A stretch of 64,000 nt of DNA from a virus: positions 21,895 through 85,894 of the IMG/VR virus record IMGVR_UViG_3300013104_000024; one strand, 5' to 3'. The notes beneath the pieces were generated by a model, which was not told where the DNA came from, made no database searches, and saw only the letters and a list, made by a program, of their open reading frames with translations. How positions within the stretch are numbered: the stretch's first letter is position 1; every line of letters begins with the position of its first letter. Positions 5,478 through 42,748 of the stretch are shown one piece after another. The position numbers and the translations under genes are program-made.

Positions 5478-6137
5478 GTGACCAAGAAGTCTGCAAGCCG
5501 CCGTATGCGGGACCTCCAAGCGTCGGGCAAAGCACCCGCACCTCGCACGTCTTACGTGGCCCCGGTGCACTCCATCCACCCGATGTTCCAGAAGAAGCTC
5601 GTCGAAGTCGCCAAGGACGAAGAAGAGCGCAAAAAGGCAGAAGGCTGGATGCCCGTCTACGACGAGCTGAACACCATGTACGTGAACTGCGCCAAGGGCG
5701 TGATGGCACCGGCCGTGCTGTCGAAGCTCGCGGCTCGCAAGGACATCATCGCGTTCATCCGTGACCACCAGAGCCTGCAACTGCGCATCGAGATGTTCAA
5801 GCGCGACATCGGCACGCTCAAGTCGGAACTGTCGGCAATCGCGTCTGAACACGCCGGCAAGACCGGCGGCACGTCCGACGAAGACGAGATCATGGCGGCG
5901 AACCTGATCGGCCAGAAGTACCAGCTTTTCCTGGAGCGTCTGGAAAGCACGATCCAGCCGTCGATCGCACACATCTTCGAGATCTTCACCGAAGCTGAAG
6001 TCCGCATGCTCGACTCGCAGGGTAAGCTGTCGGAAAACGGCCTGAAGCCGGAGCAAGATCCGAACGTCATCACCGACGTCTCGGCGACCGAAGTCGCCAG
6101 CACGGCTGCCAACGCCGTCGCTGAAATCAACTCGTAA
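5478..6137 (+). CDS. Unknown helical protein, first of plus-strand block
   Basis: 219 residues starting with GTG; AGGAG lies 8 bases upstream and no better ATG exists. The N terminus is basic (TKKSASRRMRDLQASGK), the middle is helical with many charged residues (coiled-coil-like, about 60-150), and the C terminus is Ala/Thr/Val-rich. It is followed after 12 bases by a larger gene on the same strand. The block sits as an island inside minus-strand RNAP genes, so it was probably inserted or inverted as a unit. Confidence 0.75.
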   Translation: MTKKSASRRMRDLQASGKAPAPRTSYVAPVHSIHPMFQKKLVEVAKDEEERKKAEGWMPVYDELNTMYVNCAKGVMAPAVLSKLAARKDIIAFIRDHQSLQLRIEMFKRDIGTLKSELSAIASEHAGKTGGTSDEDEIMAANLIGQKYQLFLERLESTIQPSIAHIFEIFTEAEVRMLDSQGKLSENGLKPEQDPNVITDVSATEVASTAANAVAEINS

Positions 6138-6149
6138 TCGAGAAGGAAC

Positions 6150-7739
6150 ATGGAAGAAAACCAACAAGGCGGCGCATCGACGCCTCCGCAGACGGGTGAG
6201 AACTCGCCCGCTGTCGATCCGGCAAAGATCAACCCCGTCGAGTCGACTCAGCCTGCGACGGAAGAGCTGCCGGAGCAGACGCCGGCAGCATCGGGGAATG
6301 CACCGGAACGCGACGCATGGCCCGGCCTGCCGCCGCTGGAGCCGTCGAAGACGGTGCGCCAAGACCACGAAACGTACAACCCGGATCTGACGCCCGGCTC
6401 GCTTGATCCGGCCAAGGGCGAATTCCTGATTCTGCCGGCGGATACGGAGAAGCGCGTCGAGCAGTATCACGCGGAGCGTCCCAACGAGCAAATCGGCGAC
6501 ACCGAAGGCGAGCGCATGTGGGCACAGCGCATGCTCGACGGTGAACTGACGCGTCCGGTCAATGCGCAATTCCAAGCATCGGTCGAGCGCGACGATGCCG
6601 ACTGGGGTCAGTCGGTCAAGTCGGAAATGGGCGAACTCATGGCGGCTCGTCCGCGCATGGCGCAACCCGGCGAATCGATGCTCACCGGCCAGCGGGCCGT
6701 GCAACGCGTGCGGGCGATCATCGGGATTGGCGGTCTTATCCAAGTCCCGCTGTGGAACTCGGGCTTCTGGATCACGCTGCGCGCACCCGATGAAGGCGAC
6801 CTGCTCGATCTGTTCCGTCGTACTTCCGAACAGAAGGTCACCCTCGGCCGTCGTACCTACGGTCTGGCATTCGCGAACTCCAGCTCCTTCATCGCCGAAG
6901 AGCTGGTGAACTTCGTGCTGGAACACCTGCACGACTCCACGCTCAAGATGGGCAACGAGTTCGTGCGCAAGTACCTGAAGGTGCACGATCTGCAAACCAT
7001 CGCTTGGGCCATGGCGTGCGCGATCTACCCGAAGGGCTTCCAGTACTCGCGTTCCGTCCTCGCTGGTGAGAACCAGGAGAAGAAGGAAGTCAAGGGTCTG
7101 CTCAACGTGTCGAAGCTGCAATTCGTCGACCGTCGCATGCTTACTCCCAAGCAGGTCGCTCACATGTCGCGTCGTGTTGGCAACACCATGACCGACGAGA
7201 TGCTGGAGAACTACCAAGCGGAGTTCAACCTGCGCGAGCGTCGCGTGCAGCTCGAAGAAGGGCTGGAAATGACGCTCAAGGTGCCGACCATCGACGAATA
7301 CCTGAGCGCGGGTCACCGCTGGATCGATTCGATCACCGACATGGTCGATCGGGCATTCGGCCGCGATCAAAGCGACGAACAGCGTGACCGCTACATCAGT
7401 CACAAGGGCAAGGCGACGGTGATGCGTCAGTTCGCGCACTGGGTCAAGGACGTGGTGGAAGCAGGCGATCGCGAAGTCGTCTTCAACGACACCGAAACCA
7501 TCGACATGATGATGGACACGCTCTCACAGGTGGATGACATCCGTACGAAGTATTTCGAAGCGATCCACAAGTTCATCGACGAAACCACGGTCAGCGTGAT
7601 CGCTACGCCGACGGTGGCTGCGAGCGAAGAGAACGTGCTGCCGCGCTTTCCGCACCTCGTGCCGATCGATGCGCTCTACACGTTTTTTACCCTGCTCGTG
7701 CAAAAGAACAATCGAATTCAGGCCCGTATGGACCTGTAA
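6150..7739 (+). CDS. Large unknown protein with disordered N terminus, possible tail or virion assembly factor
   Basis: 529 residues. The first 120 are Pro, Glu, Thr and Gln rich and probably disordered; the rest is a folded, charged helical protein. RBS GAAGGAAC precedes the ATG. It lies between a small helical protein and a 140-residue protein whose C terminus resembles T4-type hub/tail assembly chaperones. A role in tail or baseplate assembly is therefore possible. I recognise no catalytic motif. Confidence 0.72.
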   Translation: MEENQQGGASTPPQTGENSPAVDPAKINPVESTQPATEELPEQTPAASGNAPERDAWPGLPPLEPSKTVRQDHETYNPDLTPGSLDPAKGEFLILPADTEKRVEQYHAERPNEQIGDTEGERMWAQRMLDGELTRPVNAQFQASVERDDADWGQSVKSEMGELMAARPRMAQPGESMLTGQRAVQRVRAIIGIGGLIQVPLWNSGFWITLRAPDEGDLLDLFRRTSEQKVTLGRRTYGLAFANSSSFIAEELVNFVLEHLHDSTLKMGNEFVRKYLKVHDLQTIAWAMACAIYPKGFQYSRSVLAGENQEKKEVKGLLNVSKLQFVDRRMLTPKQVAHMSRRVGNTMTDEMLENYQAEFNLRERRVQLEEGLEMTLKVPTIDEYLSAGHRWIDSITDMVDRAFGRDQSDEQRDRYISHKGKATVMRQFAHWVKDVVEAGDREVVFNDTETIDMMMDTLSQVDDIRTKYFEAIHKFIDETTVSVIATPTVAASEENVLPRFPHLVPIDALYTFFTLLVQKNNRIQARMDL

Positions 7740-7747
7740 GACCACTG

Positions 7748-8170
7748 GTGCGTCAGCGTCTGGTGGCCGACGCAGATTTCGAGGACGGGATCAATATCAG
7801 CGTCATGTTGGAACGACTGCTGAAATCCGTTCCTCGGATCTGCTCTACCGATGCTCAATTGTTAATGCTGGAGCAGTACGAGACGTTATTCGGAATTTAC
7901 GACCATGGCAAAAATGATCTGAACCATCCCTTTGCTGCGGTCGAACTGCATACTGCTGAAGACAACTTGACGTACAGTCTTTTGTACGAGCGCATGGAGC
8001 AATTCGTCTACCATCGTGTCCACGAAGCGACAGGTGAAACGTGGTCTTCCTTTTTGAGGTTGCCGTGTTACGAAGCGACCGAGATGATGCGGATCGCTGC
8101 TATCCGGCGTGAGAAGGAAGAACGCGCAGCAGGTAATCTCACCAACGAATTGAAAGGACTGAAACCATGA
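7748..8170 (+). CDS. Small protein resembling tail/baseplate assembly chaperones
   Basis: 140 residues, GTG start nine bases after the previous stop, with a weak ribosome binding site. The C terminus (WSSFLRLPCYEATEMM followed by a charged RREKEERA helix) has the pattern of small myovirus hub or tail assembly chaperones such as T4 gp51/gp26-like proteins: a LP.YE motif then a charged helix. That likeness is weak and from memory. Its stop overlaps the start of the macrodomain gene (ATGA), so they are co-translated. Confidence 0.65.
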   Translation: MRQRLVADADFEDGINISVMLERLLKSVPRICSTDAQLLMLEQYETLFGIYDHGKNDLNHPFAAVELHTAEDNLTYSLLYERMEQFVYHRVHEATGETWSSFLRLPCYEATEMMRIAAIRREKEERAAGNLTNELKGLKP

Positions 8171-8622
8171 CGATTGTTTGGGAAGGAGTAGGCAACATCT
8201 TTGATTCGAAGATGCAGACTCTCGTGAATCCGGTCAACACGTTCGGAGCCATGGGTAAGGGTCTGGCGGTGCAGTTTAAGAAGCGGTATCCGGAGTACTA
8301 CGAGGCATACCGACGTGCGTGCACACGACGCGTATTCCAAATCGAAAAGTGCTTCGTGTACAATTTCGAAGATCGTGACCAAAAGATCTACTCGTTCCCG
8401 ACCAAGAGTCACTGGTCTCGACCCAGTCGCTGGGAGTGGATCGATGCGGGTTTGCTACATCTGGCTGAGAATCTGGAGAAGTATGGGATTACCGGTCTGG
8501 CAGTTCCGGCTTTAGGCTGCGGAGAAGGCGGTCTGGAGTGGGACATTGTGCAGGATCTTCTGTACAAGTATTGCGAACCCATGCCCATCGATGTCGAAAT
8601 CTATCAACCGATACGAAAGTAG
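8167..8622 (+). CDS. Macrodomain protein, DarG/TARG1-like ADP-ribosyl glycohydrolase
   Basis: 151 residues forming a single stand-alone macrodomain. Residues 21-34 (NPVNTFGAMGKGLA) and the following QFKKRYP are the ADP-ribose-binding loop of the DarG/TARG1/ALC1-like branch, and PALGCGEGGLEW near residue 120 is the second, phosphate-binding loop. In DarTG systems the DarG macrodomain removes ADP-ribose from thymidine in DNA and neutralises the DarT toxin. A phage copy without DarT would be well placed to undo host ADP-ribosylation of phage DNA or proteins. Function as an anti-defence enzyme is inference. It ends the plus-strand block and is followed by a strong bidirectional terminator. Confidence 0.88.
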   Translation: MTIVWEGVGNIFDSKMQTLVNPVNTFGAMGKGLAVQFKKRYPEYYEAYRRACTRRVFQIEKCFVYNFEDRDQKIYSFPTKSHWSRPSRWEWIDAGLLHLAENLEKYGITGLAVPALGCGEGGLEWDIVQDLLYKYCEPMPIDVEIYQPIRK

Positions 8623-8623
8623 A

Positions 8624-8684
8624 CAAAAAAAAGAAGGGTATAAAGCATGCCGCCGGCTGGGTTTCCCCAGCCGGCTTTATGCCC
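8624..8684. terminator. Bidirectional terminator
   Basis: A ten-pair stem (GCCGGCTGGG with CCCAGCCGGC, 8652-8675), extended by an outer TATAAAGC/GCTTTATG repeat, lies between convergent genes. Read on the plus strand it ends in TTTATGCCC; on the minus strand it ends in CTTCTTTTTTTTGTC. Both tails recur elsewhere in the window. Confidence 0.85.
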
Positions 8685-10624: not shown

Positions 10625-12178
10625 TTATAGCAGTGTGCCGTAGAACTGCGCGTTGAGAATTTTGGCACGCGTCCTGAGAAGCTCAACTTTCTTCTCATGA
10701 TAAGCTAGGGGGCGTGCAAACTGCTGCGCCACCAACCAGACGAATCGGGGAACTCGTCCGGGGGCTAACTTATCGCGTAACCGGCCCGCACCTTGGATGT
10801 TACTCTGGGTCGAATCGACACCGGTCGTCAGGAAAGCACACTTCAGATTCGGAATGTCGACGTTGGTTCCGGCGCTACCTAACGTCGTCACACAGATGTC
10901 TGAAGTCAGCAAATTGTCGTACTCATCATTCGCTGAACCGCAATATCGAGTAATCTTCAGATCAGGATGGCGCTTTCTGAGATCGTCACGCAAGATCGTG
11001 CAAAACTCTACGCCTGCTGCGTAGATAATCATCCGCTCGCCTTCCAGATGGTCAGTGAGCAGTTCTTTTCGCACAACCAAGTTAATCATATCCAGATAGC
11101 GACCCAGTACTTTCTTATCCTTCATCACGGAGTCTTCAAAGACGTGGTGCGAATACGTCCCTTGTTTCCCCATGACTCTGATGCGTTCGGGTTTTTCAAA
11201 CTCGAAACTAATCGACGTTGCGCTAATGTAGGGGACGTAGTCCACTTCAAAGCGATCGATCTTTGGATAAGCCAACTGCGCCATTCGATTTCGCGTTGCG
11301 TTATCGAACTGCATCGTTGCCGACAAAGAAATCGACAACGGTACATGCGTGTAGAGGTCTTGCAAGAAATTGAAGTGAAACTCCTGATGCACCTCATCAA
11401 TGACTCGCACCCCTACACCCAGCAGCTGATAGAAGTACTGCGGCGCTGAAGAGTAACCTACCACTTCAATGCCAGCGCCAAGCTTTTTGTAAAGGGAGAA
11501 CCAGATCTGCAACAGCTTGCTACTGATCAGGATCACCTTCACATCTGGCAGCTCGCTGACTGCCATAAAGAGCAACATCTTCAAGTCTTTCGTCTTGGAG
11601 ATGACCAACACATCTTCTACTGCCATGTCGTAAGTGCGCAGCAAATCCAGATGCGTCTTTTCGACATACTTGGCCTGTACAGACCAAACCGATAACTCTC
11701 CGAGGTTAGCAATCGCCTGCATCGTCGAATAGCTTTTGCCGTACCCCGGAGGCATCCCAAGCAGCTTACGAGGAATATCGCGGTTCGTGAGAAACGCAAT
11801 CGCCTCGGGCTGCTTGTATTCAGGATCAGGTACCCAACCAGACTGAACGCGAAGCTCCACCTTGCGCGGTTCATTGAGCGGAACGACACTGAACTTCACG
11901 TCCCTGTCAAAGTCCAGACCACAGACCTTCAAGTGATCCTTAAACTCCGACAATTGGTTGACGTGAAACCGGTATTCGGTCCGATCATCGGTGGCCGTTG
12001 CATAGACACAATCATCTTTGTTGCTTTGGTTCGCCTGAGCGTACCAAGAAGGTTTCTTCTTAACCTGCTTTTGCTCGATGAAGCGCCTCGCAAAGTGAGT
12101 AACTGCCGTCCGTGCTCGCGGGCTCAACTTCGTGATTTCAAAGTTGTGCGAGAACAGACGGACAGTACATTCAGCCAT
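10625..12178 (-). CDS. SF2 DNA/RNA helicase, UvsW-like
   Basis: 517 residues. Walker A is GMPPGYGKS (141-149), the DExH box is DEVH (261-264), motif III is SATM (286-289) and motif VI is QGAGRLRD near residue 470, in the correct order for superfamily 2. The N-terminal 130 residues are an accessory domain. UvsW of T4 remodels stalled forks and R-loops; phiKZ carries a similar helicase gene directly after its beta'-C gene, as here. AAGGAGG lies three bases before the ATG. It follows beta'-C after nine bases and is surely in the same transcript. Confidence 0.88.
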   Translation of the reverse strand: MAECTVRLFSHNFEITKLSPRARTAVTHFARRFIEQKQVKKKPSWYAQANQSNKDDCVYATATDDRTEYRFHVNQLSEFKDHLKVCGLDFDRDVKFSVVPLNEPRKVELRVQSGWVPDPEYKQPEAIAFLTNRDIPRKLLGMPPGYGKSYSTMQAIANLGELSVWSVQAKYVEKTHLDLLRTYDMAVEDVLVISKTKDLKMLLFMAVSELPDVKVILISSKLLQIWFSLYKKLGAGIEVVGYSSAPQYFYQLLGVGVRVIDEVHQEFHFNFLQDLYTHVPLSISLSATMQFDNATRNRMAQLAYPKIDRFEVDYVPYISATSISFEFEKPERIRVMGKQGTYSHHVFEDSVMKDKKVLGRYLDMINLVVRKELLTDHLEGERMIIYAAGVEFCTILRDDLRKRHPDLKITRYCGSANDEYDNLLTSDICVTTLGSAGTNVDIPNLKCAFLTTGVDSTQSNIQGAGRLRDKLAPGRVPRFVWLVAQQFARPLAYHEKKVELLRTRAKILNAQFYGTLL

Positions 12179-28140: not shown

Positions 28141-30093
28141 TTAGTTCCAGCGACCGCGCCATGCGCCGCCGAACTGGCCGCCGGGTTGCGGATTCAGGCC
28201 ACCTTGCTGGAACAGGTTGGTGGTCTGGTAGCCGCCGAGCGCTTGCTGGACGAACTGGTACTGCGGCACGTCGAAGCCTTGCACTTCGCCGAACGGAGCC
28301 GATTCGCGGATCGCGAGACCGGTGCCAGCCGCAGCCGTCGTGAACGCTTGCAGGAAGTCGTCACGGAAGGTGATACGCGTCGCGAAGCCCGTGATCTTCA
28401 GGCTCGGGATCAGCGTCTGGAGGATGTGGATGCGTGCGTCGAGACGCTGCTCGATCGGCAGGTCGCTACGCAGATACGTATCCGTCCAGTCACGTGCAAC
28501 CTTGATGTCACGCTCGCCCATCAGGTTGTACATCGCCACCGTGTCGACGTCGCGGACGTCGCGCAGTTCGCCGTCGGCACCCGGATAGTTGCCCAGCACG
28601 ATGCGGTTGTTTTCGTTGAAGCAGATTTCGCTGCCACGCACGAAGCCGGTCTTTTCCAGCCCGCCGTTGGTCAGGTAGTTCACCGCATCGTACAGCTTTT
28701 CCGAAGCTTCACGCTTGCGCGCTGCTTCTTCCTGGCTGTTCGGCATGCGGGCTGCTTCCGCGAAGTCCACGTTCGGCCACGTGGAGTCGCCGCATTCTTC
28801 GACGTCGAGCGAGATCACCAGACCGTCGCGAACCGTGGCGTGCAGCAGCGCGCCCAGATCCTGCGCACGGAACGTGTCCGTCTTCGTGTTGATGCGCGTG
28901 CCGACGCCCGTCGCCGGATCGATCATCGTTTCGAGGCCGATCGCGCCGATGTCCTTGATGTCCAGATCCTTGTCGCGGCCGAGGTTGTACTGCGGCTTGA
29001 ACGCGGGATACCAGGCACCCGGCTTGCGCAGCGTGTAGACGGTCAGCAGGGCCAGCAGCTGCTTGCCGAGCGTCGCGCCGTTGTCGGTGCGCAGGTTGGT
29101 GATGACGAAGCGCGGGATGAACTGCTTGAACTGCTCGATGTTCTGGCCCGGCTGGAACTGGAACTGCGGCGGCAGATACGGGTTGATCTGCGGCTGACGC
29201 TGGTGGATCAGATCGATGAAGCCGGCGATACGGGTGATGTCCGTCGGCTTTTCGAGGTTCTGCGACTGCTGCACTTGCTGGTTGCGCTGTGCTTGACCGG
29301 CACGGAACACCACGCGAACGTCGGCACGCACTGCCTGGCCGGTCGTGTCGACCAGTTGCGGCTGATGGAACTGCGTGTTCAACGTGAGCGTGCCGTCCTG
29401 CTCGATCTTGCGCAGGTTCAGATCGCGGAAGCCCGGAATCGACTTCGCCAGCGCCATGGTCGCAGCCGACACGGCGTCCACACGCAGGAACTTCTCTGCG
29501 TTTTCTTCCGACCACTTGAAGTCGGCACGCACGACGCGGCCTTCGCCCGAGTGCAGCGGAACGTTCGGGAACTGGCGGCTCAGTTCCTTGCGGATTTCGG
29601 CGCGCATGATTTCGTCATACGCGTCGCCGATCACTTGCTTCAGTTCGACCGTACGGCCTTGGCCGATGTTGACCGACACCGGGTTCGGTTCCGGTGCGCT
29701 TTCCGCGAGCAGCAGTGCGTGATAGCCGACGCCCAGTTGCGGTTGTTGCTTGAGCGACACGCAGATGACGAGCAGCGACACGCCGAGGTTCAGCGCCGGG
29801 TTTTCGCGGTCCAGCGCGACGACACGGATGTCGAACGTCGAATCGGGCAGCGACTTCAGATCAGCGTCCACGACAGCACGAGCCTTCGTCAGAACTTCCG
29901 ACTGCGCGTTTGCGGCAGCCGGCATTTCGAACATCGAGCCGAGCGCACGGAAGCTCAGCAGCGGATCTTGGTGCGACGCTTGTGCTTGTTGGCTGCTTGC
30001 TTGTTGACCAGCGGGTTGCTGCTTGGCTTGTGCCTCGTCGAAAGCGTGACCGAGGTTGCCGCGTTGCTGGCCTTGGGAGGTTTTCAGGCTCAT
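28141..30093 (-). CDS. Candidate chimallin (phage-nucleus shell protein)
   Basis: 650 residues. A Gln/Ala-rich disordered N-terminal arm (about 45 residues) and a flexible Gln/Gly-rich C-terminal tail ending in WRGRWN flank a folded core. This architecture, the size and the position directly before the beta'-N gene match phiKZ gp54, the shell-forming chimallin with flexible terminal segments. It has its own early-type promoter and a private terminator, and codon bias strong enough that the opposite strand has no stops, all expected for a very abundant protein. AGGAAAATC precedes the ATG. Similarity to known chimallins was not tested; a different abundant protein remains possible. Confidence 0.55.
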   Translation of the reverse strand: MSLKTSQGQQRGNLGHAFDEAQAKQQPAGQQASSQQAQASHQDPLLSFRALGSMFEMPAAANAQSEVLTKARAVVDADLKSLPDSTFDIRVVALDRENPALNLGVSLLVICVSLKQQPQLGVGYHALLLAESAPEPNPVSVNIGQGRTVELKQVIGDAYDEIMRAEIRKELSRQFPNVPLHSGEGRVVRADFKWSEENAEKFLRVDAVSAATMALAKSIPGFRDLNLRKIEQDGTLTLNTQFHQPQLVDTTGQAVRADVRVVFRAGQAQRNQQVQQSQNLEKPTDITRIAGFIDLIHQRQPQINPYLPPQFQFQPGQNIEQFKQFIPRFVITNLRTDNGATLGKQLLALLTVYTLRKPGAWYPAFKPQYNLGRDKDLDIKDIGAIGLETMIDPATGVGTRINTKTDTFRAQDLGALLHATVRDGLVISLDVEECGDSTWPNVDFAEAARMPNSQEEAARKREASEKLYDAVNYLTNGGLEKTGFVRGSEICFNENNRIVLGNYPGADGELRDVRDVDTVAMYNLMGERDIKVARDWTDTYLRSDLPIEQRLDARIHILQTLIPSLKITGFATRITFRDDFLQAFTTAAAGTGLAIRESAPFGEVQGFDVPQYQFVQQALGGYQTTNLFQQGGLNPQPGGQFGGAWRGRWN

Positions 30094-30143
30094 GATTTTC
30101 CTTTCTTTGCTAAAAAGATGTTTGCGCAAACACAGTGTTACCA

Positions 30144-30329
30144 CTATGCAAGAGAGTGATATATAGCCAAGAAATCTTTGATTCCGGCAATATCGACATC
30201 AACTGACATCACAGGTGGTGCCCCAGCCCGGTTGGGACCGGGCCAGGTAAAAGGTGAGTGGGTCTCACCTCCTATAAGATAAGGGTGGTGGTGATAAAAT
30301 TCTAATGCGAAATCAATCCTACCCTTCAC
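30144..30329 (-). CDS. Small unknown protein, GTG start
   Basis: About 61 residues beginning at a GTG that overlaps the previous stop (GTGA). Contains a Tyr/His-rich patch (EFYHHHPYLIGG) and ends IAGIKDFLAIYHSLA. The frame also continues upstream to an ATG at 30404, but the overlap start fits local practice. Function unknown; reality of the gene is moderately supported by the coupling and non-random composition. Confidence 0.5.
   Translation of the reverse strand: MKGRIDFALEFYHHHPYLIGGETHSPFTWPGPNRAGAPPVMSVDVDIAGIKDFLAIYHSLA
30155..30182 (-). promoter_or_regulatory. Early-type promoter for candidate chimallin
   Basis: Minus-strand sequence ATCAAAGATTTCTTGGC followed by TATATATCACTC. It lies 60 bases before the gene start and inside the last codons of the upstream 61-residue gene. 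Confidence 0.66.
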
Positions 30330-42581: not shown

Positions 42582-42669
42582 TGGCGGAAGCGGTGAGATT
42601 CGAACTCACGGACAGTTTCCCGTCGCCGGTTTTCAAGACCGGTGCCTTAAACCGCTCGGCCACGCTTCC
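42582..42669 (-). tRNA. tRNA-Ser (anticodon UGA)
   Basis: 88 bases including an encoded CCA. Acceptor GGAAGCG/CGCTTCC, anticodon loop CTTGAAA (UGA), a long variable arm typical of serine, and a T loop GTTCGAATC. All arms pair. Confidence 0.95.
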
Positions 42670-42672
42670 ATA

Positions 42673-42748
42673 TGGTGCCGGTTGTAGGATTCGAACCCAC
42701 GACCAACTGATTACAAATCAGCTGCTCTACCAACTGAGCTAAACCGGC
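42673..42748 (-). tRNA. tRNA-Thr (anticodon UGU)
   Basis: 76 bases including encoded CCA. Acceptor GCCGGTT/AACCGGC, D arm GCTCAGTTGGTAGAGC, anticodon loop TTTGTAA (UGU), T loop GTTCGAATC. Three bases upstream of tRNA-Ser and in the same transcript. Confidence 0.95.

Follow-up and report, generated by a model that had tools for sequence, protein, structure and literature searches.

A stand-alone DarG-type macrodomain in a nucleus-forming phage, a candidate antidote to host ADP-ribosylation

What does a DarG-type macrodomain do in a phage when it stands alone? The question is raised by the window analyzed here, 64 kb of an 85.9-kb virus record, in which an open reading frame at 8167–8622 (+), with an ATG at 8167 and a stop at 8620–8622, encodes a protein of 151 residues. 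Both peptides quoted in the first-pass annotation, NPVNTFGAMGKGLA and GCGEGGLEW, are present in it. The notion that a phage macrodomain counters DarTG is not new: it was raised as a possibility in 2022 by Iyer et al., who wrote that certain phage Macro and NADAR domains might oppose the ADP-ribosylation of DNA by TA systems, favored small-molecule targets, and reported phage macrodomains in 56% of jumbo phages (PMC9503650). Stand-alone DarG-like macrodomains are indeed common in phages, occurring in 261 records, and phiKZ gp104 is a member of this family. A literature search, with preprints and most subscription journals outside its scope, returned no report of de-ADP-ribosylation by such a protein, which is weak evidence of absence. 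The fold, family, active-site residues, stand-alone state, phage context and conservation of the protein are directly established.

The record belongs to a phage, as had been claimed. A homologue of chimallin (ChmA) is encoded at 28141–30144 (−) and matches PF25677 at 7.3e-34 (117 bits against a cut-off of 27); by this criterion for Chimalliviridae, the phage is a nucleus-forming relative of phiKZ. We examined 14 records, picked as large, that have a stand-alone homologue of the macrodomain, and 10 of them also matched the chimallin. Megablast against known phages gave no match. A related record of 244.6 kb shows 98–99% DNA identity over the 16 kb compared, and another of 243.4 kb encodes a macrodomain protein that is 78% identical.

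The macrodomain gene is the last of a cassette. The first gene (5478–6137, +) encodes 219 residues of unassigned function, with FLC9 gp359 as its counterpart, and is followed at 6150–7739 (+) by a gene for 529 residues (phrog_4585), whose product matches PhiPA3 gp074, itself annotated for its similarity to phiKZ gp077, and has matches in 204 phage records. The gene immediately upstream of the macrodomain (7748–8170, +; 140 residues, phrog_12109) has counterparts in FLC9 gp361, Goslar_00082, L003 and L038, and ends in a TGA that shares bases with the start codon of the macrodomain gene (ATGA at 8167–8170). The cassette order is conserved in FLC9, Goslar and a Sulfuriferula-binned contig, and in LucasX with one inserted gene; in PhiPA3 and 201phi2-1, the homologue lies at another locus. 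The Sulfuriferula-binned contig (L038, JARLJL010000015.1, 245 kb) carries a 63% identical macrodomain in the same cassette, and its assembly also encodes a 55% identical chimallin; the contig very likely comes from a jumbo phage. A betaproteobacterial host is suggested on the basis of FLC9 and the Sulfuriferula bin.

By family, the product of 8167–8622 is a DarG-type macrodomain and nothing else, i.e., a predicted stand-alone ADP-ribosylhydrolase. It matches Pfam Macro (PF01661) at 1.6e-12 (47.9 bits against a curated cut-off of 22), the PADLOC DarG profile at 1.1e-53, and NCBIfam DarG (NF048014) at 1.8e-49, the last in the macrodomain part of the profile only (positions 6–149 of 338), so that its 168.8 bits miss the whole-protein cut-off of 250. 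A sequence search of the PDB returned DarG of M. tuberculosis (2.4e-34) and T. aquaticus (8.5e-34), and T. africanus DarG was also placed well above TARG1. The AlphaFold2 model, built from 48 sequences, has a mean pLDDT of 95.9, and its fold matches are macrodomains, with T. aquaticus DarG in complex with ADP-ribose as the top match of the predicted structure (TM 0.92). DarG ranks first by four routes, namely NCBIfam, PADLOC, PDB sequence and fold. The DarG2 macrodomains of DarTG2 (T. aquaticus 5M3E, M. tuberculosis 5M3I, and T. africanus 7OMU) share the fold of the phage protein with 38–41% identity and TM values of 0.88–0.92, compared with ~24% identity and TM values of 0.71–0.77 for TARG1. 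Membership in a DarG/TARG1 group, as first assigned, is borne out by K80 and the pocket residues described below, although the protein is much nearer to DarG than to TARG1.

The same searches bear on another substrate class. The protein might act on small ADP-ribose derivatives such as ADP-ribose-1''-phosphate or O-acetyl-ADP-ribose, or on signals or products of NAD-consuming defenses. Relatives are annotated as "Appr-1-p processing", phrog_335 is labeled "phosphatase", Poa1p is among the fold matches (TM up to 0.80), and Iyer et al. argue that phage Macro domains mostly target such molecules (PMC9503650). However, identity to Poa1p is 21–22%, well below the values for DarG, and the Lys and Trp of DarG are retained. 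KptA, which makes Appr-1''-p, was not found in the phage record or in two near-complete sister genomes, although hosts may have it; an RNA-repair partner was thereby ruled out as well. We regard action on small molecules as unlikely.

Alignment with T. aquaticus DarG shows that the active site is preserved. Comparison with the catalytic Lys of DarG had been proposed from the start, and K80 is present (K80 in T. aquaticus DarG, K84 in TARG1); the loss of active-site residues that would have spoken against the assignment did not occur. Also shared are N24, K31, T79, H82, W83 and the glycines G117, G119 and G121, which correspond to N22, K29, T79, H82, W83, G117, G119 and G121 of T. aquaticus DarG. 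Jankevicius et al. (2016, PMC5179494) found that enzyme to lose its activity with K80A and to be impaired by N22A, K29E or G119E, and all four of these positions are conserved in the phage protein. Moreover, neither the 55 viral stand-alones nor the 85 DarTG-linked sequences compared show any variation at K80, N22, T79, G117 or G121 (T. aquaticus numbering). The phage protein departs from DarTG-linked DarG at two residues that contact ADP-ribose: T20 is replaced by P22 and N120 by E120. The position of the catalytic Asp125 of TARG1 is occupied by Gly, as in DarG, which argues against the reversal of protein ADP-ribosylation made by a host enzyme or an unrecognized phage ART. TARG1, the nearest eukaryotic relative, works on proteins, and ARTs are frequent in jumbo phages (PMC7824862); nevertheless, none of the ART and SIR2 families searched for was matched in the sister genomes, and a protein substrate appears very unlikely.

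The first-pass annotation had taken "NPVN" as a hallmark of DarG, and here it was mistaken. In a comparison of 147 sequences, the residue before V-N (T. aquaticus residue 20; residue 22 here) is T in 80 of 84 DarTG-linked macrodomains, whereas in stand-alone macrodomains it is P in 41 of 63 and T in 14 of 63. At the sequence level, most phage stand-alones can be told from DarTG-linked DarG by P at this position. The association is strong, but once phylogeny was controlled only five supported pairs were left, on average four of them pointing in one direction, a number too small for a claim of convergence, and the signature was set aside as proof of a functional change. One short macrodomain without T20 (L044) is nested among DarTG sequences.

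The C-terminal DarT-binding region of DarG is missing, and DarT (PF14487) was matched neither in the record of the window nor in the near-complete sister genomes G001 and G002, nor was it found in 13 further macro-bearing phage records. The positive control, Thermus phage phiMa, was found at 5.8e-61. This phage carries DarT together with full-length DarG (L010, 3300–5056), for which the annotations read "hypothetical" and "ADP-ribose 1-phosphate phophatase related protein". A phage-borne DarTG antitoxin was ruled out for the window on both grounds, the absent DarT and the absent DarT-binding region. We surveyed the best 80 bacterial and the best 80 viral loci, a sample that is not random and whose relatives are not independent. 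Among closed ORFs, 55 of 78 viral ones were short without DarT nearby and 20 were long with DarT; for the 77 bacterial ones, these numbers were 7 and 63 (Fisher p 1.6e-15, for best-match loci). The typical bacterial macrodomain forms the N terminus of a long DarG beside DarT, whereas the typical viral one consists of ~150 residues alone. In Betaproteobacteria, the class to which the host may belong, DarT adjoins related macrodomains, Paraburkholderia being one example (L060, L057, L062). In a tree, the window protein clusters with those of L003 and L038 (support 96), followed by other phage stand-alones; a recent capture of a host DarG is unsupported by this grouping. Some other stand-alones nest among DarTG sequences in the same tree, for which TARG1 is an unreliable root (end branch 8.6).

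The missing half and the altered T20 and N120 could indicate a remnant antitoxin or a non-catalytic binding module, and FLC9 offers an example of how an inactive-looking copy can arise. In that phage, a second macrodomain (gp363; L004, 8467–8919) lies in tandem with gp362 and is 45% identical to it; its K80 is replaced by R and its MGxG loop by GGGG, and it is probably an inactive duplicate beside the intact gp362. For the window protein, such a loss of function is extremely improbable given the invariant pocket residues and the selection on the gene. It differs from a sister genome by five nucleotides and no amino acids, and dN against the 78% identical homologue is 0.15, given alone because dS is saturated. 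The gene looks genuine and selected, and these comparisons indicate strong purifying selection.

We consider it moderately probable that the protein is a DarG-type ADP-ribosylhydrolase that depends on K80 and reverses base ADP-ribosylation by a host toxin. It would be produced from the conserved three- or four-gene cassette and bind ADP-ribose in the macrodomain cleft, where Lys80, as in T. aquaticus DarG, would free thymine, and possibly uracil, bases of ADP-ribose. The modifications reversed would be those made by host ADP-ribosyltransferase toxins such as DarT2, and the phage genome could then go on being replicated or expressed. Catalysis and substrate are what we infer here, and a counter-defense role is plausible. 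Since the DarT-binding half is missing, the protein would be expected to act by repair only, without a direct block of DarT. This absence is compatible with an antidote, because the T. aquaticus macrodomain by itself rescued cells from DarT (PMC5179494). No DarT, KptA, SIR2 or exotoxin-type ART was matched in the record or the two sister genomes, with few families searched for the latter two; an ART or sirtuin of the phage's own was thus discarded for the families tested, and the maker of the substrate is probably the host's. When phiKZ gp104 was knocked down, less ChmA accumulated but plaques on PAO1 were not clearly reduced; its authors predict that the gene is of benefit under competition or where the host has other defenses (PMC12571901). 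If the antidote reading is true, a large phage family labeled "Appr-1-p processing", "phosphatase" or "hypothetical", and for the most part unlabeled, would come to be seen as ADP-ribosylation antidotes, and a repair-type answer to DarTG would join AdfA, AdfB and NADAR. It would also pose the question of which ADP-ribosylated substrate needs repair in nucleus-forming phages while the DNA is shielded.

In such phages, the DNA lies first in a vesicle and later in a protein nucleus. DarT may be unable to reach it there, which counts against a DNA-repair role; the chimallin gene thus complicates a simple model in which the enzyme repairs phage DNA, and the substrate may be exported RNA instead. 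Under this alternative, uracil-linked ADP-ribose would be removed from exported phage mRNA (or tRNA) in the cytoplasm, with NADAR handling guanine adducts. The possibility is raised by the finding that T. aquaticus DarG, TARG1 and SCO6735 free RNA of uracil-linked ADP-ribose, although the activity of T. aquaticus DarG is below that of TARG1 (PMC13036486). NADARs reverse guanosine-ADP-ribose in RNA (PMC11833690), and RNA-targeting anti-phage ARTs are known, CmdTAC being one (PMC11618068). However, the CmdT mark is described as lying on adenine N6 in GA dinucleotides rather than on uracil (PMC11833690), and no uracil-marking bacterial defense was found. RNA as the main substrate deserves attention as an alternative but is not likely.

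NADAR itself is encoded in both near-complete sister genomes, at 197710–198150 in G001 (L023), where a zinc-ribbon-like protein gene comes next, and at 160858–161274 in G002 (L022). Of 13 further phage records with a macrodomain, 7 have a NADAR match above the cut-off, and no NADAR was found within the window or the 85.9-kb record. The gene had been described as distinct from the NADAR-type factor; this holds for the fold, which is unrelated, yet the sister genomes carry both, at separate places. NADARs reverse base ADP-ribosylation by DarT-type toxins on guanine, not thymine. As DarTG2 combines thymine with a macrodomain and DarTG1 guanine with NADAR (PMC11543638), the two phage enzymes together would cover both DarT types. 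A more specific version, which we hold to be rather doubtful, is that the DarG-like macrodomain (thymine, uracil) and NADAR (guanine) form a two-enzyme kit that cleans nucleic acids in nucleus-forming phages, the exposed substrate being exported cytoplasmic phage RNA, for which the pocket has changed (T20 to P, N120 to others).

Among known proteins, phiKZ gp104, PhiPA3 gp108, 201phi2-1 gp167 and Goslar_00083 are also stand-alone macrodomains (~160–190 residues) of nucleus-forming phages, and Goslar_00083 shares the gene order of the window; their identity to the window protein is merely ~29–35%. TARG1 of animals and SCO6735 of Streptomyces stand alone too, reverse thymine- and uracil-ADP-ribose, and protect from DarT (PMC9411070, PMC13036486), but they are cellular genes with ~20–24% identity, and SCO6735 lacks the Lys. 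AdfB of ICP1 is a phage gene that counters macrodomain-type DarTG; unlike the protein studied here, it has 77 residues, is <15% similar to DarG, and is proposed to bind and inhibit DarT directly (PMC11481870).

Downstream of the cassette, a perfect GC-rich hairpin of 10 bp, GCCGGCTGGG-TTTC-CCCAGCCGGC (8652–8675; z −4.81), lies between convergent genes. It is flanked by a short T run on the plus strand and by an A tract at 8625–8632 that forms a T run on the minus strand; it was not called by the terminator scan, and its sequence makes it a possible bidirectional transcription end. Beyond the convergent genes lies a helicase-like gene (10625–12178, −; phrog_16, 9.1e-19), with similar ORFs in L003 and L038. 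Elsewhere in the window, adjacent tRNA genes for Ser(tga) and Thr(tgt) are located at 42582–42748 (−).
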